Below are positions 2,340 through 61,592 of a DNA stretch of 64,000 bases, one piece after another. The notes beneath the pieces are model-generated. The model worked only from the letters and a program-made list of their open reading frames with translations. It searched no databases and was not told where the DNA came from. Origin of the DNA: Diphasiastrum complanatum (taxonomy: Eukaryota > Streptophyta > Lycopodiopsida > Lycopodiales > Lycopodiaceae); contig CM055095.1 of the NCBI GenBank assembly GCA_029204225.1, positions 47,256,510 to 47,320,509 on the forward strand, written 5' to 3'. The position numbers and the translations under genes are program-made. Every line of letters starts with the position of its first letter. Within the stretch, counting starts at the first letter, position 1.

Positions 2340-3025
2340 CACAACTCTCGACCTCTTGGGTCAAAGTAACCTATGATAATGTAAGCAATTCCATTTACAT
2401 TCCAACAGCGTTGCTAGATCTTCTTATGAGGGTGGTCGAGGTTTTACCGCTTCATACCTCAGTTCCTCCTGCAACAAGATGTTGTGAAGATCCTCAAATG
2501 TCGGTAGCCTCTCCATTGATGCAATGCCGCTTGCAAACATTTGAATATTTCCTGATAAGCCGCTCATTGCCATGTGCACTGACTTCACATCTCTTATTGG
2601 CTTGCCAATTGCAGTTAATTGGTCTCTCAATTCCTTGATTCGTGTAAAAGATGATCCCGCACCATCATTTTTCTCTATACGAATACCATTAAGTTTGGTC
2701 CTTAGAAATATCATTTGTCAAGGATTTGTCATTTGATATTCTGCTTTGAGTGCTTCCCAAGCGCCTCTTGCTGTTACGGAATCACCAATGTGGGCAATGA
2801 CATGGTCCTTCACGGCCAAATTGATTAGGCATAGAGCCTTTTGATCCTTTTATCGTATGAGCGCTTATCTGCTAGAGTTGTGTCGGGGCGTTGTTCCACT
2901 CTAGTAACAATGTCCCAAAACTCCTTTGTCAAAATGCTTTTTATTTTAAGTATTGGAATTCTATAATTGGACAGCCTGTCCAATTTACTAGCTTCCCTAA
3001 GTGTATATTCACCCAATCTTGCCAT
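2340..3025 (-). pseudogene. Second Ty1/copia gag remnant
   Basis: The minus strand encodes a copia Gag in pieces: KSILTKEFWDIV with VEQRPD near the start, then LRTKLNGIRIE, FTRIKELRDQLTAIG, AMSGLSGN and LPTFEDLHNILLQEELRYE. These match the DUF4219/UBN2 gag architecture. The frame is broken between about 2825 and 2714 by stops. The sequence differs clearly from the gag at 503-1348, so it is a separate family. Confidence 0.8.
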
Positions 3026-3611
3026 TTTGCCAATAATAGCTTCTATGGTGCCTTTTTGAAGCTAAATGGATACCTTTAAGTGTGAATAGAAGTTCTGCAA
3101 GTCAATTTTATGGTCTGAACGAAAAGTTTCAGGCCCTCTTGCCACTTGATTTGACGTAAAATGCCAAAAACTCCCCAATTTTAGCAAATTGCTCCATTGC
3201 GACTTCACTGACCTTCCTTGCCCTTAGAATGGTCTATTTGGACCTCCAATCCACTTTCTCCCCACGATTCAGCAAGCAGTCTGTCCGGGAGTTGTACTTG
3301 CAGGCTATAGTCCTTAATTTGGACAAAATTGGCTTTCGGACGTCCCTATTCGGAGAAAAGGCAACAAAGTTTGAATCAATTTTTCAAATTGAAGTAGAAA
3401 AGCCCTTCAGGTTCCCTCATAGGCCCTTTCAAACTAAAATGTTTTAAAGAAGTTGAAGGCTGAAATCCCTTTCAATAGCCCTTGTAGATCCTACTGTGGA
3501 TTCAAATTTGGCTATTCACACTTCTTTGTCCACGACCGATGATCAAAGAGAACCTCGATCTAATGGATTTCAATCGGTTCGCACGATGAACCTCAACCCT
3601 ATGTGTGCTGA
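3026..3611. other. No gene recognised
   Basis: Between the copia gag remnant and the LTR element starting at 3612. Some short open frames exist but none shows a known motif. Confidence 0.35.
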
Positions 3612-3973
3612 GTTATGGACTTGGCTCATTACATTCGCCGTGTCCATTCTTTTATTATTATTATGCATAAGCAGGCCTAAGGGCCCTTTTTATTCATATA
3701 CTGGCCTTGGGCCCTATTTGGCTGTATTTTTAGGACTTGGTCACATTGATTTGGAGTGGGGGTCTTCCTGTTGGGAGGGCGCACTATGTTCCCTTTTCCC
3801 TCCCTTTTTTGAATCCTCCATTTGATTCAGGGAGAGGGTACAAGTAGGGCATCATTGTATTCCTTTATTCAGTTTATGATGATTGCTCCTCTTTAGCCTC
3901 CTTAAGCATTCTCTTCCTGCTTTCTAGCTTAAGTCCTGCTTTCTAGCATAGCTAGTGAATCTTAGTTTGTAAC
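3612..3973 (+). mobile_element. 5' LTR of a short LTR retroelement
   Basis: This block of about 362 bp recurs as a near-identical direct repeat at 5007-5377. Both copies run from GTTATGGACTTGGCTC to a shared end at CTTAGTTT(G/C)TAAC. The first copy is followed at once by a tRNA-iMet primer site (3975-3986), which identifies it as the 5' LTR. Exact termini are uncertain because the edges are not a clean TG...CA and I found no target duplication. Confidence 0.8.
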
Positions 3974-3974
3974 T

Positions 3975-3986
3975 TGGTATCAGAGC
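3975..3986 (+). other. tRNA-iMet primer binding site
   Basis: TGGTATCAGAGC is complementary to the 3' end of plant initiator tRNA-Met and lies one base inside the 5' LTR. It would prime minus-strand DNA synthesis. Confidence 0.8.
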
Positions 3987-3997
3987 ACTTTCCTGCA

Positions 3998-4580
3998 GAT
4001 TGGTGGAGGCTGTCAAGCGCCCTACCACCCATCACTTTCATCGATTTTTCTCCGTCAACCTTCCTGCAGATTGGTGGAGGCTGTCCAACGCCCTACCACC
4101 CATCAGTTTCATTGATTTTTCTCCGTCATTTTTGCAGATTGGTGGTGGCTGTCCAGCGCCCTACTGCCCATCACTTTCGACGATTTCTTCATCATGATTT
4201 GCAGTTTTGGTGGAGGCTGTCCAGCGCCCTGCTAACCCATCACTTTCGTCGATTTTTTCGGCAGATTTTTATTGTTTTTGCAGATTTGGTAGCTATTGCC
4301 CAGCGCCCTACTACCTCATCATTTTTGACACTTCTCATCACTGATTTGCTGTCCATTTTTGATATTGATTGGAGGCTGTCCAACGCCCTACTACCGTCTC
4401 ATTTTCAGCGGTAACCCATCACTTTCGTCGATTTTTTCGGCAAATTTTCATTGTTTTTGCAGATTTGGAAGCTATTGCCCAACGCCCTACTACCTCATCA
4501 TTTTCGACACTTTTCGTCACCGATTTGCTGTCCTTTTTTTATGTTGATTGGAGGCTGTCCAGCGCCCTACTACCGTCTCA
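3998..4580 (+). repeat. Tandem array inside the short LTR element
   Basis: About eight diverged units of roughly 66-100 bp, each with a core like GGAGGCTGTCCAACGCCCTA followed by a T-rich stretch with CATCACTTTC or CATCATTTT. Neighbouring cores are about 71 and 68 bp apart at the start (3998, 4069, 4137). Longer open frames cross the array because the units rarely contain stops, so openness here is not evidence for a protein. It sits directly after the primer binding site, where a leader is expected. Confidence 0.8.
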
Positions 4581-4955
4581 TGGTAGAGCTCAGACTTGGT
4601 GGCGTGTTTATCACTCTGAGCCTACTCGTGGGGGGTTACATATATGGCCTACTTTTCGTCATGATCTTCGTATGGCTATGATTGACCCACAGTGGTTGGT
4701 TTGCCATCGTGATCTGTTTCGTAGACTTCGCCATACTAGTGATTTGACTGCTTATATTGATCAGTTTATTGAGCTTTCCTACATTTTTACTGATCTTCAT
4801 CCTACAAAGCTTATTTTACATTTTATTGCCGGTCTTAGAACTACCTTACGATATGATGTCTCATCTTTTCGGTTCAGATGCTATCTCCTTGGCTACTACC
4901 TTGCAGCATAAGTATCCTGAGTTATCCACTTCATGCTTACATTATTATTTTAGAT
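4581..4955 (+). pseudogene. gag-like remnant of the short LTR element
   Basis: A gag fragment can be read after the array: WPTFRHDLRMAMIDPQW, then DLTAYIDQFIELSYIFTDLHP and FIAGLRTTLRYDV (quoted in parts). The pattern, an FxxxL region, a YIDQFxxLS helix and FIxGLRxxLRxxV, resembles the Ty3-type retrotransposon gag domain. There is no zinc knuckle, protease or polymerase before the 3' LTR at 5007, so the element is non-autonomous and depended on enzymes supplied in trans. The gag identification rests on pattern recognition only. Confidence 0.55.
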
Positions 4956-49800: not shown

Positions 49801-52800
49801 GAATGTTCCGATTGCCAATAAATCACTGGTAAGTTGCAACTTATAATTAAACAAATTTTCAACAATCCTATTCACTATGCACAAATTTTCAGCAATCCCA
49901 CAGACACTTGAACACGAGATTTTCCAAAAAATTATCGAATTTTAATTTGAATGATGAATCGATTGTAAGAGTTTCAAATTGGCATTCTTTGTGACCATGG
50001 TGCAACACTGCAAATATAATTATTAATGTGAACTCTTTAGTCCAAGCCCTGACTCCATCTGAAGTGTCCACAACTTAAAAGAATGCGTGCCTCAGGGCAT
50101 TAATGATGGACCTTCCAGTGGACATCTATCCATCCATCGGCCATGATCGAGAGAACACGTATCACCGCCAAGCTCCCATCAACACCCAGAGCTCGTCAAT
50201 GACTCCATTAACTGCTGCCCTAAGGTTAGTTGTGTGCAACAACTTTGCCAATGGGGGCCATTGGCTGGTGTCACAAGCAGCCACCTGAGCCTTAGAATCT
50301 CTAAAGAAAGTGGTGTCAGAAAAAAGAAGGTTTCAGGCCTTAGAACACAGTACAGACTACCACCTTGGCTGCCTCCTATATCTGCCTCAACGCCGTCGCT
50401 TGCGCTGGTGTCTGTGGCCTAAAACAAGATGGCCTCACTTGCTCTCTTTGTTACAATCAGAATCGTTTTCATATTCTTTGACCATTTTCTTGAATCGACA
50501 ATTAACAAAGTTTTTATTATGTTTGATATAGTGAAGCTAGTAAAACCACTGCAACACTTTCTCTGTGTTATCAAATGTATGCATAAACTGTTAAACGATT
50601 TGTCGTGTGTAAGTGTACTTTACAAGTAGCTCGCCAGCTCATCTAGCTCCAAAATCATGTTTTTGCTTGTAAAGAGCTATGACTAGATGCAAATATATGA
50701 CCAGTAAAGGTGTTTTTTTGGCATTTTGTGACTGAACAAACTTTATGCATGTTCTTGCAATTTGCCAAAGCGACAGTGCATATGCGAGAAGGTGCACCTC
50801 TCAAAAAGATCCAACGTACACAATCCAACTTCTGCATCTAGAAAATAGAAAGTTGCTAGCAGACTAACCACACAACTATTAGCTCCATCCTAGACCTACC
50901 CCCAACTCTGAGATTCCTAATCCAACTCCAAGTTTGACTTTATGTTTACTACACCTAAATTCCATACCATAGACACTTATCCATTGAGAATGACTTCATA
51001 TAACAAACCAACTCTTGGCCTGCACCATAGTCCAAAATCTTCTTGGAAGTGCTCCTCCAAAATGAATTCTCTCTCAAGGCCCGGCATACCTATATAGCCT
51101 TGAGTGGTGACTGGTCGACATTAAGGGAACTTACAATTACAGGTAGCCCAACAAAGGTCTTGTCCTTGCTACCATGGGAACAAATATATCTATTTGTGAA
51201 ATTAGAATATATCCAATTTCACAAATTTACATAGAGAAGTTAGTGAGGTCGTAAGGCAAAGCTTAGAAACAATATACGATCAACTCAAAAAGTCGAAGGA
51301 TCTAAGTCAAAACAATAATATAAAATTCAAAAACAAAAAATCTTAGCCAAACAGCATTGCTTATGTCTCATCAATACCCAAGCATAAGTTGCTAACTGGG
51401 TTTCAAAAGAATCCGGATTCTCTTGGGTAGACCCAATGTTGACTAAGAAGCAAAAGACAACCAGTAAGAAGAAAGAAAAAAAAAATGATGATAATAATTC
51501 AAATAAGATGAAATTCAAAATTTATAATTTATAAATTTATAAATCTAACTAAAAATACAATAAATACGAACAAGGATCATAACATGTATACGAGTTACCG
51601 AAACAAAGACAAATTACTAGAAACAAAGTGGGCTCCTTAGCTCCCGACTTTTCTGAGACTCTGTTATTAATCATCTTAAACATACCATAAGCAGAAATAC
51701 CAAAGATAAAACCTCTAAAACAGTTCGAACTTTTCTCACAATTTTCTTAAACGAGTAAGAGAAGTGAACACTCCATATTTAACAAAATCTGAAATATTTG
51801 AGAAATATGAGGCATGCGAATTATTTTCAAGTTACTGTATTCTGACTGCAGCCTTTTATCAAAAATATCAACCAATAAACCTGGCCTAGCCTGGCTTATA
51901 GACAGGTCTAAAAAATTGCACTTATCATCACTAGTTGTAAAATTAAGTTCACATGAGTTTTCAGGATAGATTCCTCCACCAAAAACGTTAGGGTCTTTAT
52001 ATAGAAAACTACCAAAATTAGGGAGATCATGAACAAATAAGTGATCAATATATCTTCTAACATGAGTTAATTTATGCAATAAGATGGGACAAGTACCACA
52101 AGAAACTAATCTTTGTATATATTCAAATTCATAAGAGAAAAGATAAAAGTTAGCTAGATGAACAGCACAATTAGTACCCATGGGAATACCTATCGTATGT
52201 TGAAAAAGTGAATCACCTAGAGAAATATGCAAGTTATCCAAGAGAAAGTGCAGCCAAGAACAAACATCTTCAACATCAACTACTTTAGTAAATCTTTTCT
52301 TCTCTGAATCGACATCTTGATTTTCGTTCTTAAGCCAACAAAAGTTCAAAATGCAAAGCACTCTTTTGAACTTTTAAAGCTTTGCATCGAGTGTCCTTTA
52401 GTTTATTGCTAAAAACATCTTGAATTAGCTAACGGCACTAAATTTCGTCCTCCTCTTTCAGTAGATGCTTGCTTGTTAAAATCTATAACTACGAGTATTA
52501 ATAAGTTCATCTACCATATTGAAGAATCTTTTGGAGTCCATGTTTTGTTATTAGAATGGAAAGCTAAAGTATCAAATTATGTAACTTTGAGTTTGAAAAA
52601 AGTCTTTGTCCCATCTTCTGATATTCATACTTCATTTTCTAATGAGGAGGAAATTCTTCTTTGTACGTTTCATAGACATTTTGTCATTTCGTATGCGGAT
52701 AAATGCTAAAACAATTTTGTATTTGTTTGCAAGAAATTCTATTTGGAATCGTTATTGAATGAAGTCCATTCTCTAGTGGGAACATATAATGTTACAACCC

Positions 52801-55800
52801 CTACTTACTGCAAACCTCTAGGTGCTAGTTAACCACAAGAGACCGAACGATTCACGTTCCACCCCGCCGTAGGACCGAACGATTCACGTTCCACCCATCG
52901 TGCCCTGGCCTGTGACCATATCAAGCTAGATCCGACCTCCCTCCTAGTCGGCGTCCCATACCACCGCCTAGGCTCTTAGCCATCTCCTGCCTCACGCTAG
53001 CAAACATCTTGGCCGTGCACACACTCTCCATCCACCTTCTCCTAGGTAGATAGAATGGATGGCAAATGAGCCCTCCTACCCTTGTATACCTCCAAGGAGA
53101 GAGACTCCAAGCCATGCGCACTCCTGGATCATGACACGTGGCAACCATGCAGGTTCACGAGTCACCGGTCAAGTCTACAGGCCGTCTGGGTTTGGGACCC
53201 AAGGGAGTTGGGTCCCTAACATTCCCTCTTCCTTCAAAAATTCCTTATCTAAGGAAGAAAAACAGGGAACCTCAATTTAAGGTCATGTTCCTTTTCCCAA
53301 GTATCATCGTCCTCAGAATTTCTGTTACACACTCACTTACTGCAAACCTCCAGGTGCCGGTTAACCACAAGAGACCGAACGATTCACGTTCCACCCCGAC
53401 TTAGGACCTAATCCGGGTCCACCCTCCGTGCCCTGGCTTGTGACCGTATCAAGCTGGATCCGACCTCCATCCCAGACGGCGTCCCATACCACCGCCCAGG
53501 CTCTCAGCCATCTCCTACCTCATGCTAGCAATACATCCTGGCCGTGCACACGCTCTCCATCCACCTCCTCCTAGGTAGACAGAATGGATGGCAAATGAGT
53601 CCTCCTCCCCTTGTATACCTCCAACGAGAGAGAGACTCCAAGCCATGTGCACTCCTGGATCATGACACGTAGCAACCATGCAGGTTCACGAGTCACCGGT
53701 CAAGTCTACGGGCCCAATCATCGTCTGGTCTCAAGTCTGGGTTTGGGACCCAAGGAAGTTGGGTCCCTAACATTCCCTCTTCCTTAAAAAATTCCTCAAG
53801 GTGTTAAGGTACATCCAGTTTTTCACATTAGTCGTTTAAAGGAACGACTTGGTGGAAAGGATGACTTACTGCCTCAAGAGGACTTAGTTCGGCTGGAGGA
53901 CCTATCATCCTTTGTACCTACTGAACCACAGTCCATTGTTGATGTACGTCAACGTGGACTCAGAAACCGGCAGGTAACTGAGTACTTGGTTCGTTGGAAA
54001 GGAAGTTCCGAGGACGATGACACTTGGGAGAAGGAACTTGACCTTCAACTGAGCTTCCGATGGAGTTTCTTTACTATACGGAATGGCCCTGCATAACGAG
54101 GTGATAACTTAGGACATTTTCCAGTCCTTAGTACCTTAGAATCTTTTGGGATTCTAAGATATACCCAAGCTCCCTCCTCATAGACCCTAGGTTGTCGCTT
54201 TTGATTGGCGTAAAACTGGGCTTTGTCCTGAGCCGTTTTTACGTTTTCGCGAGCAACAAGCAACATTTCTTGCATATCATGCAGGACATCTACTGCTGCT
54301 TTAACCCTAAGGCCTTTGAGGCCCACTGAAATGGAAGCCCTAGGCTGGAAACCATACATCAGAGAAAATGGACTAAAACCCGTCACTGAGTACTTTGCGC
54401 TATTATACGCAAACTCAATCATTGGAAGGTACCTTTCCCAATCAGACTGTCTTCTAGAAACATATGCTCGAAGCATGTCTTCCATAGACTGGTTTGTCCT
54501 CTCTGTCTGACCATCCGATTCAGGATGATTTGATGAACCCAAACTTGTCTCTAATTTCTCAAAGACCGCTTGCAAGAATTTGCCAGTGAACTTCGGATCT
54601 CGATCACTAACAATGTCATTCGGCAAACCAAACAACCTGAACAACTTTTCCACGAAAAGCTGCGCAAATTCTGAAGCTTTGACAGTTTGCTTGGTTGGTA
54701 TGAACTGCACCATTTTAGTTAACCTGTCAACTATCACACCTCCTTATGTAGTCTCTATAAGCAAACATTCTAGAGACAACATTATCACTAGGGGCCAAAA
54801 AATTAGGAGTATTAAAAGTAGGATGAGGAGGTGTGATCACACCTTGTGGAATGTAGCAATCTAGAGGAGGGGGTAGATGTTGTGATATAGGTTTCCAAAC
54901 TTTCAGACCATCGGAAACGTAAGGTGTAATGCTTTTAGTTTTAGAGTGGATTCTCCACAACATGGAAGTTTTTTTGGCAAAGTTTCTACTTTTTCGTAAC
55001 TTGGACTTACCCTCAAAATTATAACCTCTAGGAAAAAAGGACTGAAGAGTTCTCATCCAAAAAAGTTCACTAAGACAGACAACCTTGAAAAACTCTTTAG
55101 AATCAGAAAAGTTTCCAGCAATTTACTCAATGGGAAAACCCGAAAGGACTCAGAACCACATTTGGCTATAGCAGTATACAGGTTTTAACTCTTCTTTAGG
55201 AAACTTGGAGCTATGTACTATTCTAGCTTCTTGAACATGTTCTTGAAAACGTACAAAAGCAGACCGAAAAGTTTGGTCAACATATACCATACTCCTATTT
55301 CATATGTTATAAATGACATAGAATACTTGGGTGGTATGGATTGGGCTAAGAGGCATAGAGGTATGCACATGTTTTTCTCTAAGACGTCTAAGGCGATTCA
55401 AAATTCTGATATGGTTATTCGTATAATGAGTACTAACAAGCAAAGACTTAAAAATAGACCATTTAATAGGACCTTTTCCAAAATTATGAAGTTTATTCAA
55501 ATTACATCCAGACAAAAAGTTAAACCTTTCTCTATGATTTCTAACATTTCTACTAGTAAACAAAGGGGTAAAGGGATGGAAGAGCAAACCTCTGAAGTGG
55601 TGATAGTAGAAGAGCCATAGATTATATTTTGAGTAGTCAGAAAATTGAGAACAGGCTCTCCTGAAGCCTATTAGTCCAAGGTCAAAATTACTGTTCACCA
55701 CACCCCTCGTTTATTTAACCGGGCTGTTGTAAAGCGGTGAGGCACCTAAATAGGTCCGCCTGTTACACTCGAAAGACACAATAGATGCGCCCGCGACTCT

Positions 55801-58800
55801 TGAAGTAACACTACTTGACTCCCTCTCACACCGAAAATCTTTCACGAACCTAACCAAAAAGCCCTTAATCCTAAAAGGACCCAAAGAAAGGAAACTTCAT
55901 GTGAGTATGGTTCAGACTCTAACATGGTGAGAGACAGTTAACTGGACCATGAGAGAGTCGATCACACGAAATTTTTTCGGAAAAGGTTTTATAGAATTTG
56001 CATAAGTGACTCTGCGTGGTAAATTACAAGGACGACCAAAGAGCCAAATGTACAAAAATTTTTACAAGAGGCACGAATTAACATAAAACTTACTTTATAA
56101 CTTTGATACCATCAAGAAAAAGAACCTAAACCTGAACATTAAGGAATATTGAAGTATTTATCTGATGAAGCACAACCGAGAAAAACTTGACTACAACGAT
56201 ACATGAAGGAATTTTTCTTTGATTTTATTTTTGTTTTTACCACTAAAGGAGTGTCCAATATTGAAAGTTGAAAAAAAAGGAAGTAGAGCATCAATTAACC
56301 TAAAGTAAAAACAATTTTATAAATTGGACTTTAAATATGAAAAGTAGATACTTAGAAGAGAATCAGAAAAATGATGAAGGTACAACACAGCTTCTTCATA
56401 AGCAATGAATCACAAACTTCAAAAACTTTTTGAGACTAGAGCTAGGTAGAGGAAAGGAGAATAACTGGATGAACTAGAAGCAAGTGATTAACCCCAAGAA
56501 CCTTACCAACATGACATCGAGTAAGAGATGTTAGAATCCGATTAGCTGTAGGGGCATGCGCACTATGCAAAATAAGAACATACAGCTAGCCACTACTTGG
56601 ACGAAAATTCATTAAAAATTTGCATCTCCGTTACAGTGACAAAAAAATATCTATTTGTGAAATTAGAATATATTCAATTTCACAAATTTATATAGAGAGG
56701 TCAGTGATGTCATAAGGTAAAGCTTAGAAACAATATACGAGCAACTCAAAAAGTCAAAGGATCTAAGTCAAAACAATAATATAAAATCCAATAAACAAAA
56801 AATCTCAGCCAAACAGCATTGCTTATGTCTCATCAATACCCAAGCATAAGTTGCTAACTGGGTTTCGAAAGAATCCGGATTCTCTTAGGTAGACCCAGTG
56901 TTGACTAACAAGCAAAAGACAACCAGTAAGAAGAAAGAAAAAATAATAATAATGCATAGAACCCACGGTTCCCAGAACCGTGGGTCCTGGGAACCGTGGA
57001 AGGAATCGTACCACGGTTCCTTGAACCGTGATACGGTTCCTCTATTTAATTAAGTAATTAATTAATTAGTTAATTACCAGATTCACAGATTTCACAGATG
57101 ATTTCATAGATTTCACAGATGATACAATCATCTGAAATCATCACTGATTTGACAGATTTCACATGATGTACAGATGATTTCACAGATGATTTCACAGATG
57201 ACACAGATGATTGACAGATTTCACAGATGATTTCACAGATTTTTTTGGCTCTTTTTTTGCATATTTTTGGGTTATTTTTGGGGGGAAACTAAAAAATTAA
57301 TTAGTTAATTAATTAATTAATCAGTACGGTTCACCACGGTTCTGGGCAAAAAATTTAAGAACCGCACGGTTCTCAGAACCGTGGTGAACCGATAAAGGTT
57401 CATTAATTCTATGTAATAATGATAATAATTCAAATGAAATGAAATTCAAAATTTATAGTTTATAAATTTATGAATTTAATTAAAAATAAAATAAAATAAA
57501 TAAAAAAAAGGATCATAATATGTATACGAGTTATCGAAACAAAGACATAATACCAGAAACGCAAAACAAGGGCCAGCTGCCACTCTGATAATATCCAATA
57601 GAAACGTTAACACACACCCACATTAGCTTTCACACATTTACACAGACCAATATATTGAGTTTCTAGAACTTCTCCAGGAGTGAAGGGCAGGCTCAGTATG
57701 ATAAAAATAAGGCTATCATGGAAGAAAACCAACTAACATTCCATCATTCCATCAGTCTCCAGCTTTATGGAGTCCACCTGGTACCCACACAGCCTTACGA
57801 CTATAAACTCCAGCATGGACCAAATACTACGAGATCCCTACTCACTTTATCATCATCCAGGAGTAGGAGCAAGTCACATGCCCAGAATTCACTTAGACAA
57901 CCCTTCAGGCATTTGTGCAGAGACCAATGAACCAAGTTTGTCGCTTCTAAAATAGAAACTAAAACCTAGTTTCTAATACATGCATTGAAAACCTAGTGCC
58001 TTTGTTTTCTCCCTCCATCCTTGACAGAAGGCTTGTAAACATTCAGAACTCTTATAAAATTTCCTAATATAACAAAGTTGAATGTTGTCCCACTCCTTTA
58101 AGTGCAAAGTCACATGCCCAAACATTTATGCATGTAGGCTTTCATGCATTTCTGCAAAAGGTGCTTGAACCAAATTATTATCACTTCCAAGAAACCTACT
58201 TGCATTAGAGCCTAGTAAATTTGTTTTCTCTCTAAATCCTCCACACAAGGCTAATAAACATTCAAACTCTCCTGTAAGAATTACTTTTGTAGCAAAGATT
58301 AAGTTATGAAATTCTCTGCCACTCCTTTAAGTGCAAATGCCAACATTCATCCATATAATATTTCATGTGTTTGATCAATGAACCGAGTTTTTATCTCTTC
58401 CTAACCTATTATCAATTACATGCATTTAGAAGCTAGTGCCTTTGTTTTCTCTCCACATCCTCCACATAAAGCTATTGAACACTCAGGCTCTTTTGTAAAA
58501 ATTGTTTTTATAACGAGTATTAGATGCTCTCCCACTCTTCAAAGTCACATGTCCACGCATTCATCCATATATGTTTGTGCACTCAATGAACCTTGCAAGT
58601 TCTTATAAATTTCTGGATAGGACCTACAAACCTAGTTTCTATTACTGGCATTTAAGAACTAGTCCTGTTTTCTTTGTCCATCCTCCACACAAGGCCAGTA
58701 AGCACTCAAACTATCTTGTAAAAATTGCTCTTATAACAAAGATTGGATGCTATCTAATCTTTTAAGTTCCCCATATCCCTTATTTTGGCCCTCCCTCTCC

Positions 58801-61592
58801 CCCTGCCTGTGGACAGGGTCTGACCAATCAACCGCGCTAGTTGTCTTGAATCAGCCTTTGATTGGATCATTGAGGCCAGCGGAATGTTCATGATCTTGAA
58901 CATTCAATCTGATATGCTACAAGTATGTGTTCTGGTGCAACTATGCCTGGAGCTCAAATGACTACAAGCATGGGTCAAAATGTTCACAACCTTGAAGTAG
59001 GATCTAAGAATTCCAGACACACACCCTGTTGCAAGCTCAAAGTAAATTCAGACATGACACCAAATGTAGCTGAGATAAGAAAAACTTGACCTTAAATTCA
59101 AATTTGCAAAGGCACACTTCTGAAAATCTCGAAGGATGTCCAACAACGAAATATAAGGTCTAAGAATAAAAGGCCTGTTGGTCAACGCATCCTTTCCTTG
59201 CCTAGAGGTATAGAATGCACCTCCTTTCAGGTATGCATGAATATTCAGACTGAGTCATAGCTATTCTATCTGGAATTTAACTAGTACAAAATGTAAAAAT
59301 TATCACATACCCAAGCAACCAAGTTGTGCTCTCCTGCAGGCCTCAAATTATCAATCGCTTTTCTCCCAGTTATCAGCTCGAGTAAAACAACTCCAAAGCT
59401 GTAAACATCTGATTTCAGTGTCAACTGTCCTGTCATGGCATACTCTGGAGCACAGTATCCATAAGTCCCCATCACACGTGTGGAAACATGTGTCTTATCT
59501 CCTACGGGACCAAGCTTGGCAAGCCCGAAATCAGACAACTTTGGCTGAAAGCCTTCATCTAAAAGAATGTTTGACGACTTGAAGTCTCTATAAATAACAG
59601 GCGGATTTGCTTGGTCATGCAAATACTCCAAACCCTGCGCAGAACCTGCCGCAATTTTCATTCTCGTCGTCCAATCAAGAGGTTCTTTATCAGGAGGAAG
59701 ATCTGAGAGCACAAATACACATACAACTCACTAAGGATGCATAAACAACTTATGTTATGTTAATCTAGACTGAATTGATGAAAATGAAAAAAACTAGTCT
59801 TGAACAAATACACTTTTGACGTATATGCCTAGTTTAAAACATAGATGTCCATAGCACAAACAAACTACACTTTGGGGTTTGTTTGAAACCCAAGACGATA
59901 ATTCAAAGCCCCACTTGAATGTAACAACTAAACCTTAAATGACCAGTTAGACTGGAAGGAGATGAGTTATCATCGCCTACAACCACCAGGGTACAGATGC
60001 TTCAAAGCTCTTGCACAAGAGCCAAGCATCTTAAACATCCTTGCAAGAAAATGATGAATATACAAAGGCACTTTCTTGTTCACTTACCATGCAAGTGATC
60101 TTCAAGGCACCCAAGTGGCATGAACTCATACACAAGTAGCCTTTGATCACCATCAGCACAATAGCCAATCAGATTAACAAGATGTGGATGATGTAGCAGG
60201 CTCAGCATTAGCACCTCTACCAAAAATTCTCTGTTGCCTTGAAGACCATTTCTGTCGAGCTGCTTGATAGCCACCACCTGTTCATGGAGAAAATCCTTAC
60301 TTTTCTATGCAAGCATTCTTGGAACGAGGCCTGAAATTAGATGAGAAAGGGGACCAGGCATTCACTATGTTTCAGAAAGGGTTGTAGTTACCTGGCCAGT
60401 GCTCTCAAGTCTCCCTTTGTACACACGACCAAAACCTCCCTCTCCTATCAGGCATTCTGGTCTGAAATTGTTGGTAGCCAATGCAAGCTCACGGAATGTG
60501 AAGGTTTGAGCCGCAATGGGGGTTGAGCCTTCGTGAGAAGAATCTTTGTAACTTTCATAGGAATTTTTTGACTTTGCTTTGTCTGCAGGAAACAAATCAA
60601 TAAGAAGCAAATCCATCTCTCACCAATCCCAAATAATGTAAATTAGGAAGAGCCCTGTGCAATGCCCATTTTAAAAAGTACAAGAAACTGACAACACTCA
60701 TGCTTTGACCAAAACAGCATATTTTCAAATTGACATAGTAGGATTTACTACAAGAAGAACCAGGAAAATTAAAAAATTCAATATATCAGAAAACAAACAC
60801 AGAAGCAAATAGATTTTCAGATAAAGAAAACAACCTGGAGATCTCAACATCTTGTGTTTCTCTCTCTAGATTTACACTTCTAGGAAGCATGGAAGTCTGG
60901 AGGGATTGTCATATATGCAAATCATACCTTCCGGACACAGATGTAACTATGTTGCCTAAGACCTGTATACTGATCGCCCTTTTTGCAATCAACCTTTTAA
61001 GTAGAAACAACAAAGAAAAGAACACTATAATGGCTTGTAATGATTGCTCGAATCTACTATGAAGACATTTTATCCAATCTTTATTTGCTTAAGATGCATA
61101 CCCACATAAGAGGAAAGTAGCTGTAACTGTTCGGTTCATTTAAGTAGAAGAATTGCTAGATTTAAAGTTTCCAGGAGAGTACAACTATATATGGAGCATA
61201 CACGCGAGAAGGGTTTTATGCACAATACAGTTCTTGACATAATATCCAGTAAAGAGTGGGTAATCTGAAAAGAAAAATCATGATCAATTGATTTGGTACT
61301 GGTAGCTACTCGCCGTGTCCGTCGGCGGAGCATCCCAAGGAAAATCGTGTGCTCTCTCTGAAAACTCTTCTAGAAAGAAAACAGAATTGTGAATGGAAAA
61401 GGCAAAGCAATTTATGAAAGCACAAAAAAAAAATTTCCCTGGAACGATCTATCTTACTGGTTCCTCACCAGACGAAACCTTGTTAAGTCGCTTCTGAGGC
61501 AAAATTGGAGACTGGCTGTCACGACCATATTCAGTCCTTTTCAAAAGCTCGCTGTCCTGGTGCCGCGCTCTGAAACAAGAAATGCAACCCAT
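46840..61592 (-). CDS. PBL27-like receptor-like cytoplasmic kinase (RLCK VII)
   Basis: Five exons, all phases consistent: 61592-61469, 60582-60392, 60277-60088, 59702-59311 and 47505-46840, giving 520 residues (Arabidopsis PBL27 is about 513). The N-terminus MGCISC is a classic N-myristoylation/palmitoylation signal, placing the kinase at the plasma membrane. Kinase features: glycine loop GEGGFG (88-93), VAIK Lys110, helix-C Glu126, YRDFKSSN catalytic loop with Asp208, DFG 226-228, activation segment [20 protein letters not shown] 253-255. The C-terminal tail (from about 380) is Ser/Arg-rich and ends with [19 protein letters not shown], a signature shared with PBL27. PBL27 links the chitin receptor CERK1 to MAP kinase signalling in Arabidopsis; the same role here is inference. 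Introns are 886, 114, 385 and 11,805 bp; the last is full of transposons yet the coding exons are undamaged. Confidence 0.93.
51186..51635 (-). repeat. PLE flanking direct repeat, left copy
   Basis: From TATCTATTTGTGAAATTAGA to ACCGAAACAAAGAC and a little beyond. Matches 56645-57575 base for base over long stretches (for example GCATTGCTTATGTCTCATCA) and lacks the MITE found in the other copy, so it preserves the empty insertion site. Confidence 0.85.
51720..52378 (-). pseudogene. PLE reverse transcriptase core
   Basis: Minus strand: [15 protein letters not shown], then [20 protein letters not shown] and [63 protein letters not shown] and, after a frame change near 51790, [10 protein letters not shown]. 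This chain of motifs ([44 protein letters not shown]-like) is the palm-to-thumb part of Penelope-like RTs, distinct from LTR, LINE and group II RTs. The catalytic YIDD box reads YIDH (Asp to His, 52041-52043), so it could not polymerise. RT motif A is missing at the upstream breakpoint near 52378. Confidence 0.9.
52418..52789 (+). pseudogene. PLE reverse transcriptase N-terminal part, inverted
   Basis: Plus strand frame reads [34 protein letters not shown], then FVISYADKC, a stop (52707-52709), [20 protein letters not shown] and SLVGTY. The FRP, ADK..NN.V.VCK.YY and TY pattern is the segment that precedes RT motif 1 in Penelope-like elements. It faces away from the RT core at 51720-52378, so one of the two has been inverted, or two partial copies lie tail to tail. 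It ends exactly where chromovirus-type sequence starts (TGTTACAACC, 52790). Confidence 0.75.
52790..53796 (+). repeat. 533-bp direct tandem repeat, probable chromovirus LTR copies
   Basis: Two copies starting TGTTACAACCCC (52790) and TGTTACACACTC (53323), 533 bp apart, sharing CTTACTGCAAACCTC(T/C)AGG, GAGACCGAACGATTCACGTT and TGGATGGCAAATGAG(C/T)CCTC. Both start with TG at an LTR-like edge. The second copy runs into chromodomain sequence near 53790. Within the first copy a shorter internal repeat GACCGAACGATTCACGTTCC occurs twice. Confidence 0.75.
53797..54057 (+). pseudogene. Chromovirus integrase C-terminus with chromodomain
   Basis: Plus strand reads [20 protein letters not shown], then [40 protein letters not shown]. 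The [10 protein letters not shown] motif is the C-terminal end of Ty3/gypsy integrases, and the YLVRWKG..D.TWE pattern is the chromodomain that guides chromovirus insertion to heterochromatin. It lies head to head with the integrase at 54045-54737 on the other strand. Confidence 0.9.
54045..54737 (-). pseudogene. Ty3/gypsy chromovirus integrase core fragment
   Basis: Open for 230 codons on the minus strand: [95 protein letters not shown]. The second catalytic Asp (SDRD) and the Glu (QTERTNQ) are present. The first Asp and the zinc-binding HHCC are cut off at 54737. Its natural continuation (the [10 protein letters not shown] block and chromodomain) is present next to it in the opposite orientation. 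The frame is open, unlike most elements here, suggesting a fairly young insertion. Confidence 0.93.
54740..55701 (-). pseudogene. PLE N-terminal region with GIY-YIG-type endonuclease
   Basis: On the minus strand a broken frame contains QVFYVIYNI, stop, [26 protein letters not shown] (about 55330-55215), and later [20 protein letters not shown] (about 55066-55019). The order Tyr (FYV), a YVGQT-like second box (here YVDQT), Arg in SAFVRF, His in QEHV, Glu in ELFW and Asn in RGYN follows the GIY-YIG nuclease pattern. The glycines of both G-I-Y and Y-I-G boxes are altered, and three stops interrupt the frame. Upstream sequence (to 55701) is open but unrecognised. Downstream sequence to 54740 leads toward the RT. 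In PLEs this nuclease nicks the target site. Confidence 0.72.
55702..56644 (-). other. Leader of the PLE, no coding motif
   Basis: Lies between the nuclease-bearing frame and the right flanking repeat. GC content is higher near 55720-55800. No motif recognised. Confidence 0.35.
56645..57575 (-). repeat. PLE flanking direct repeat, right copy with MITE
   Basis: Matches 51186-51635 from TATCTATTTGTGAAATTAGA onward. The match stops at 56954 and resumes at 57423 on the other side of the inserted 460-bp MITE. Confidence 0.85.
56955..57414. mobile_element. hAT-like MITE with 8-bp target duplication
   Basis: A 460-bp element with terminal CATAGAA...TTCTATG and flanking duplicated TAATAATG (56947-56954 and 57415-57422). 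Eight-bp duplications are typical of hAT transposons. Both ends carry nested GAACCGTGG/CCACGGTTC palindromes, and the centre is a degenerate minisatellite of ACAGATGATTTC-type words. No transposase, so it is non-autonomous. The empty site is visible in the other flanking repeat at about 51480-51500. Confidence 0.88.
57640..58770. repeat. Degenerate 220-bp tandem array in kinase intron 4
   Basis: At least four diverged units marked by (C/T)TTGTTTTCTC at 58002, 58221, 58442 and about 58665, spaced 219-223 bp. Each contains CCTCCACA(C/T)AA-type and AACTCT(C/T)-type words followed by GT(A)AAAATT. Not coding. Confidence 0.75.

Follow-up and report, generated by a model that had tools for sequence, protein, structure and literature searches.

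The window analysed here is a 64,000-nucleotide stretch of the genome of the clubmoss Diphasiastrum complanatum (contig CM055095.1, positions 47,256,510 to 47,320,509), and its minus strand carries reverse transcriptase (RT) and GIY-YIG endonuclease (EN) fragments of a Penelope-like element (PLE) inside one block, 51182-57560, flanked by pseudo-long terminal repeats (pLTRs). We show by dissection of this block and by searches of the host genome and of protein collections that the window very probably holds a PLE with an N-terminal nuclease, most likely of the Chlamys branch, as a single decayed insertion or as two combined.

The RT core, which an earlier note made from the DNA letters had placed on the minus strand, is indeed present. 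The open reading frame (ORF) 52373-51747 on that strand (208 amino acids) carries the RT core signature and NFLDLS and matches 43 proteins at E ≤ 1e-3 (65 candidates, from a collection of 5.8 billion sequences), with P0001 as its best match (62% identical residues, 88% of the query covered), and the host genome returned at least 154 RT matches, the window included (the best 150 of 2986 loose candidates were scored). The GIY-YIG-like pattern read on the same strand holds as well: FYV, YVDQT, FVRF, QEH, ELFW and RGYN all lie between 55330 and 55019, and the decayed EN domain at 54979-55368 aligns with the EN of L039, a less damaged copy elsewhere in this genome, at 78% identity across 131 of 131 residues (E 3.3e-59), with two TGA and one TAA as in-frame stops.

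Alignment to L039 dissects the block as follows, features being on the minus strand unless stated. The 5' pLTR (56643-57560) is split by an insertion of ~470 bp at 56947-57414; it is the direct-repeat partner of 51182-51624, the pair being 94.1% identical over 304 bp in the larger pieces and 85.6% over 146 bp, and it also matches the 3' end of L039. The 5' untranslated region, the EN and the start of the linker occupy 54740-56492 (87.8% over 1803 bp to L039 sense 363-2148). Between EN and RT lies a rearranged remnant of a gypsy (chromovirus-like) element of mixed strand (52790-54743), with an integrase-like ORF on the minus strand (54743-54048), a chromodomain on the plus strand (53788-54096) and direct repeats of ~470 bp that are 86.6% identical (52790-53245 and 53323-53796); in Pfam, Chromo scores above its cut-off, and rve and SH3_Tf2-1 score below theirs. 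The N-terminal region of the RT follows at 52434-52789 on the plus strand, in the opposite orientation to the RT core (359 bp aligned with L039 sense 2717-3075 at 93.0%), and the core itself spans 51759-52430 (673 bp aligned with L039 sense 3510-4181 at 94.2%). After a deletion of ~88 bp, 51182-51758 comprises the RT C-terminus and the 3' pLTR (51182-51624) with its terminal hairpin; L039 4270-4655 aligns to window 51758-51380, and the 3' region of a further copy, copy B on scaffold C6, continues the match to the end of the window copy. The window copy has no equivalent of L039 sense 2149-2716, the segment with the CxC linker, nor of 3076-3509, the segment with RT motif A.

Because this copy is wrecked by the gypsy split, the inversion and the deletions, the window alone does not prove one element or a domain order. 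The host assembly (1.74 Gb, 5176 contigs) comprises 23 scaffolds of 42-102 Mb and one of 10.9 Mb, followed by 0.39 Mb at C25, and the search for intact copies in it that the earlier note had proposed confirms the permuted order. L039 has an uninterrupted frame of 1071 codons in the order GIY-YIG (from residue 114 on, with YVGQT at 128, RFQEH, ELFW at 201 and PRGYN at 213), linker, CxC (CSC at 468) and RT (DFTTLY at 751, IGISMGTN at 849 and RYIDD at 895); the frame stops directly after the RT, and the pLTR then follows. A single frame of this family thus runs from GIY-YIG through the CxC linker to the PLE RT. Copies L041, L073 and L074 keep the EN before the RT, with frameshifts. The CxC motif reads SPCSCGDS in L039, L040 and L074, and its columns are invariant in 7 of 7 proteins of alignment A2; the relative P0053, whose own family is absent as such from the host genome (best match by E-value 41% identity), has CAY at this position.

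The order recurs across the genome. A search with the L039 EN gave at least 150 matches (the best 150 of 473 candidates were scored), and each was paired with the nearest of the 150 RT matches listed, on the same contig and within 12 kb. Among the matches listed, 34 pairs were found, the window copy being one of them and several others probably being duplicates, either of the assembly or segmental; EN and RT share a strand in all 34, the RT comes after the EN in 33, and the spacing is 1.9-2.4 kb in 18. The lone exception belongs to a tandem array in which a further RT follows 2.1 kb downstream. The other 116 EN matches have no listed RT match nearby, as expected, since the RT list holds the best 150 of 2986 candidates and many copies are fragments. 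The single frame of L039 and the 33 pairs bear out the claim that the nuclease lies upstream of the RT. An apparent mosaic on C11 (EN 96%, RT 60%) proved to be a frameshift.

Profile searches of the EN and RT regions, also suggested earlier, gave a divided answer: Pfam GIY-YIG matched the excised L039 EN at 21.6 bits (E 2.8e-4), just under the cut-off, and Pfam scans of four window ORFs, of the full 1071-residue L039 protein and of the excised EN of the homologue P0044 gave no match. P0055, a protein in which the GIY-YIG match (580-666) comes after the RT, scores the same 21.6 bits. The EN profile A3, built on five PLE sequences of which one is from the window's family, matches only I-TevI (1mk0/1ln0; E 0.004) among 177,635 PDB sequences at E ≤ 10, and as judged from its sequence the nuclease has a predicted GIY-YIG fold. 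The full-length alignment A2 matched no PDB sequence at E ≤ 1, and the L039 protein none at E ≤ 10. The EN of the window, folded alone, gave a mean predicted local distance difference test score (pLDDT) of 38, too poor for a fold search, and neither fold search with the P0044 model had a GIY-YIG structure among its best 50 matches, the EN part being barely tested there. The RT is telomerase-like, a feature observed on the homologue P0044; in L039, 98 residues separate motif A (751) from IGISMGTN (849), the site of a candidate insertion in fingers domain (IFD), and the P0044 model has strands and helices in the equivalent region. Scans of viral contigs with P0001 and P0044 and of GTDB with P0053 gave no relatives, and the alignment search with A2 gave only 4 proteins.

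To which PLE clade does the family belong? An EN that precedes the RT, a CxC linker and pLTRs are among the defining features of the N-terminal EN+ clade (Naiad/Chlamys), which Craig et al. in 2021 are said to have described from green algae, invertebrates, spike mosses and slime moulds; the earlier note, in naming green algae and invertebrates, had given an incomplete list. The family fits this clade by its domain order, CxC linker and telomerase-like RT. Within it, the family is probably a member of the Chlamys branch, to judge from sequence features of the nuclease and the RT. In the Chlamys branch the EN is devoid of the CCHH motif. A C..C pair between the GIY and YIG motifs is present in P0048, P0050 and P0055 and not in L039 and P0044 (alignments A2 and A3), and an EN without this pair fits Chlamys rather than Naiad. 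In the RT tree, the window family joins P0001, P0003-P0006 and P0014 at 100, and this group joins P0044, P0007, P0008 and P0010 at 99. The family groups apart from P0048 and P0050, which we take to be animal Naiads from their features; the tree was built from database relatives only and counts as support rather than as a test against named references. The best full-length match of L039 is P0044, with 512 bits versus 199 for the next.

Chlamys comprises the N-terminal EN+ PLEs of green algae, slime moulds and spike mosses, the last being another lycophyte group, and Naiad those of animals. Chlamys is used as a named PLE group and is reported from the brown alga Ectocarpus in the available text of a study that also refers to Craig et al. 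for earlier records of PLE hosts (PMC12477816). The window family resembles Chlamys in its N-terminal GIY-YIG, its CxC linker, its telomerase-like RT (seen on P0044), its EN that lacks the C..C pair, and its pLTRs. It differs in its host, a clubmoss, and in having no single target site, whereas targeting of ribosomal DNA is reported for spike-moss Chlamys. Discussion of plant PLEs usually centres on conifers (Dryads) and Selaginella, and to our knowledge permuted PLEs are known from few land plants. A literature search by titles and abstract starts, with the main clade and clubmoss-genome papers outside its scope, found, among the papers listed, none on permuted PLEs in clubmosses.

Several observations weigh against the assignment of the block to an N-terminal-EN PLE of the Chlamys type. 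The window copy has neither the CxC linker nor RT motif A and contains an inverted segment, and CxC is also deleted in L073 and frameshifted in L041. The Pfam GIY-YIG score of the L039 EN is one bit below the 22.6 cut-off, and the predicted EN structure is poor, with pLDDT mostly <50 in the P0044 model. In the 1071-codon frame the GIY motif (residue 114) precedes the first ATG, which is residue 126 (L039 sense 1202-1580), so that the true start would be a non-AUG codon, would lie in a 5' exon or has been lost. Within the 99 group of the RT tree, joins have little support (56 and 38), and the animal-like sequences split into two groups instead of one. Finally, the EN part of the window is more diverged from L039 (87.8%) than the RT core (94.2%).

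This last difference bears on how many insertions the block represents. Possibly, the GIY-YIG and RT fragments are two insertions of the same family, one a 5' part and the other a twin-primed, 5'-inverted 3' part, with the gypsy sequence between them, a history that we entertain tentatively. The inverted RT N-terminus abuts the RT core, which is the pattern of a 5'-inverted, 5'-truncated insertion, and the inverted piece stops where the gypsy repeat starts (52789/52790). The unequal divergence of EN and RT parts would also agree, though the EN and RT parts of L041 show a similar gap relative to L039, largely of indels (92.0 and 97.2), and those of L073 show none (97.3 and 97.2), so that such a gap is weak evidence for two insertions; the comparison neither proves nor rules them out. 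Against two insertions stands the position of the pLTRs: as in copy B, the whole block is enclosed by a 5' pLTR before the EN and a 3' pLTR after the RT, in the correct order and strand.

Readings that place the element in another group fare far worse. A Dryad-like canonical PLE with a C-terminal EN would share with the window family the presence of a GIY-YIG PLE in a land plant, and the upstream nuclease would then be that of the tandem copy in front; tandem arrays of PLEs do occur, and on C5 one EN match lies between two RT matches (28226398, 28228120 and 28230244). This is highly improbable, as one open frame links the EN of L039 to its downstream RT, refuting the idea unless by chance fusion, as that frame runs into the pLTR right after the RT, and as the EN comes first in all but one of the 34 pairs among the matches listed. 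The window family has no GIY-YIG domain C-terminal to its RT; in the Penelope/Poseidon group, by contrast, the nuclease follows the RT, according to the available text of PMC11167929, and the Dryad elements of conifers, a different host group, lie in that group as far as the accessible part of PMC9033089 reports. A horizontally acquired animal Naiad would account for the domain order and the CxC linker, which P0048 and P0050, our presumed animal Naiads, have in common with the family. However, its EN has no counterpart of the C..C pair of P0048, P0050 and P0055, its RT groups elsewhere, at 99 with P0044, P0007, P0008 and P0010, and its best full-length match is by a wide interval P0044 (512 versus 199 bits), which makes a Naiad origin very unlikely as well.

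The window family is also characterised by its termini. pLTRs are present in copy B and in the window copy; those of copy B are ~440 bp long (429 of 445 columns identical, 8 substitutions) and its unit measures 5,028 bp. A common 3' terminus is reached in 24 of 30 loci (L009-L038), a sample in which the window is counted and four pairs are probable assembly duplicates; the remaining six comprise two that end before it, two that extend past the sequence retrieved and two without a match. This terminus is a hairpin with a stem of ~15 bp (in L041 at 4562-4623, in the window at 51182-51243, and at the equivalent sites of other copies); its z lies between -6.5 and -7.3 in all four copies folded, at -7.3 in the window, and it is a candidate recognition or processing signal for the RT. 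The 19 independent 3' flanks (23 loci less the four duplicates), compared with one another only, include no pair more than 60% alike, and therefore there is no single target site. The family is dispersed and multi-copy, in unrelated target sites. At copy B no target-site duplication was obvious by eye. The words CTGATGAG and CGAAAC in the pLTR looked suggestive of a hammerhead by eye, but their arrangement is wrong for one, and an Rfam scan confined to window 51150-51700, in this decayed copy, found no ribozyme and one chance-level match.

A second PLE family came to light when the host genome was searched with P0055: 66 matches, all within P0055 residues 22-513 (the RT part) and none over its GIY-YIG, with 30 of the 66 in frames of 747 or 749 codons, many in tandem. 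At L083 (C16:51437605-51439053), the only locus of this family examined, the frame stops shortly past the RT, no ORF longer than 71 residues occurs in the next ~1.5 kb, and Pfam reports no GIY-YIG, which is weak evidence given that the RT of this locus escapes Pfam too. Of the 43 matches on the large scaffolds, 22 are no more than 50 kb from a scaffold end and 32 no more than 1 Mb, with 14 ends represented (for instance C17:8462-14653, C13:57601851-57622622 and C18:49246972-49262717), versus none and 4, respectively, of the 122 listed RT matches of the EN+ family; the Fisher p of 8e-16 for the 50-kb comparison is overstated, as array copies are not independent. The C16 end finishes in TTTAGGG repeats, and the C21 end, which was also read, stops short of them. 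EN-deficient PLEs at telomeres are reported from Selaginella moellendorffii in the available text of PMC12477314. They share a PLE RT with the window family and have a similar-looking counterpart in this host genome, namely the second family; unlike the window family, this second family has no detected EN and is concentrated at scaffold ends.

How might the EN+ family insert? The nuclease would nick AT-rich chromosomal DNA, the RT would recognise the 3' pLTR and hairpin region of the element RNA and copy this RNA from the nick by target-primed reverse transcription, and pLTRs may arise from tandem or partial-tandem copies. As far as the available text of PMC11167929 describes it, a purified canonical PLE, whose domain order is opposite to that of the window family, cuts AT-rich DNA on both strands and appears to start reverse transcription internally. 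The nuclease may also be what frees the EN+ family from chromosome ends, because the family without a detectable EN is concentrated there. The window copy would later have been destroyed by 5' inversion, deletion and gypsy sequence. We favour, with moderate confidence, the broader view that clubmosses, and perhaps other land plants, carry a deep Chlamys subclade of their own that inserts throughout the chromosomes, together with an EN-lacking PLE that is concentrated at chromosome ends; P0001, P0003-P0006, P0014 and P0052-P0054 are candidate relatives from other land plants. If this is true, the two families of a single plant genome amount to a natural experiment on the role of the GIY-YIG domain in PLE targeting and on the relation between PLEs and telomerase. 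The finding would add the clubmosses to the plant lineages that host a transposon clade already described, and a dispersed Chlamys-type family with an uninterrupted copy, beside an end-concentrated PLE that has no detectable EN, would provide a plant system in which the part of the EN in target choice, and likewise the link between PLEs and telomerase, could be tested.

The element probably sits in an intron of a minus-strand plant protein-kinase gene. Of this part of the earlier note, one flanking exon is secured by Pfam (59284-59727, minus strand, Pkinase E 4.1e-24; upstream of the PLE in gene orientation), whereas the next, presumably 47610-46843, was judged by its resemblance to PBS1-like kinases and has no Pfam match. 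The suggestion of a seed-plant relative did not survive, since two chalcone-synthase-type proteins of the host have PKS1 of the clubmoss Huperzia serrata as their best PDB match, which points to a clubmoss and not a seed plant. 3awj/3awk come first for both, clearly for L047 (678.6 bits versus 569.3 for the next sequence) and narrowly for L051 (587.4 versus 582.9). The runners-up, 6dx8/6dxf, are presumably from Selaginella. The Huperzia serrata origin of 3awk follows the published paper, as far as its available text goes. The chalcone-synthase-type family of the host (L047-L052) gave 36 matches, counted exon by exon, and one member is far closer to Huperzia PKS1 than to all other PDB sequences. 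Elsewhere in the window, local direct repeats of 67-79% identity occupy 57952-58767, and plus-strand ORFs at 3959-4908 encode an internally repeated peptide (RPTT..HHFRRFF..).

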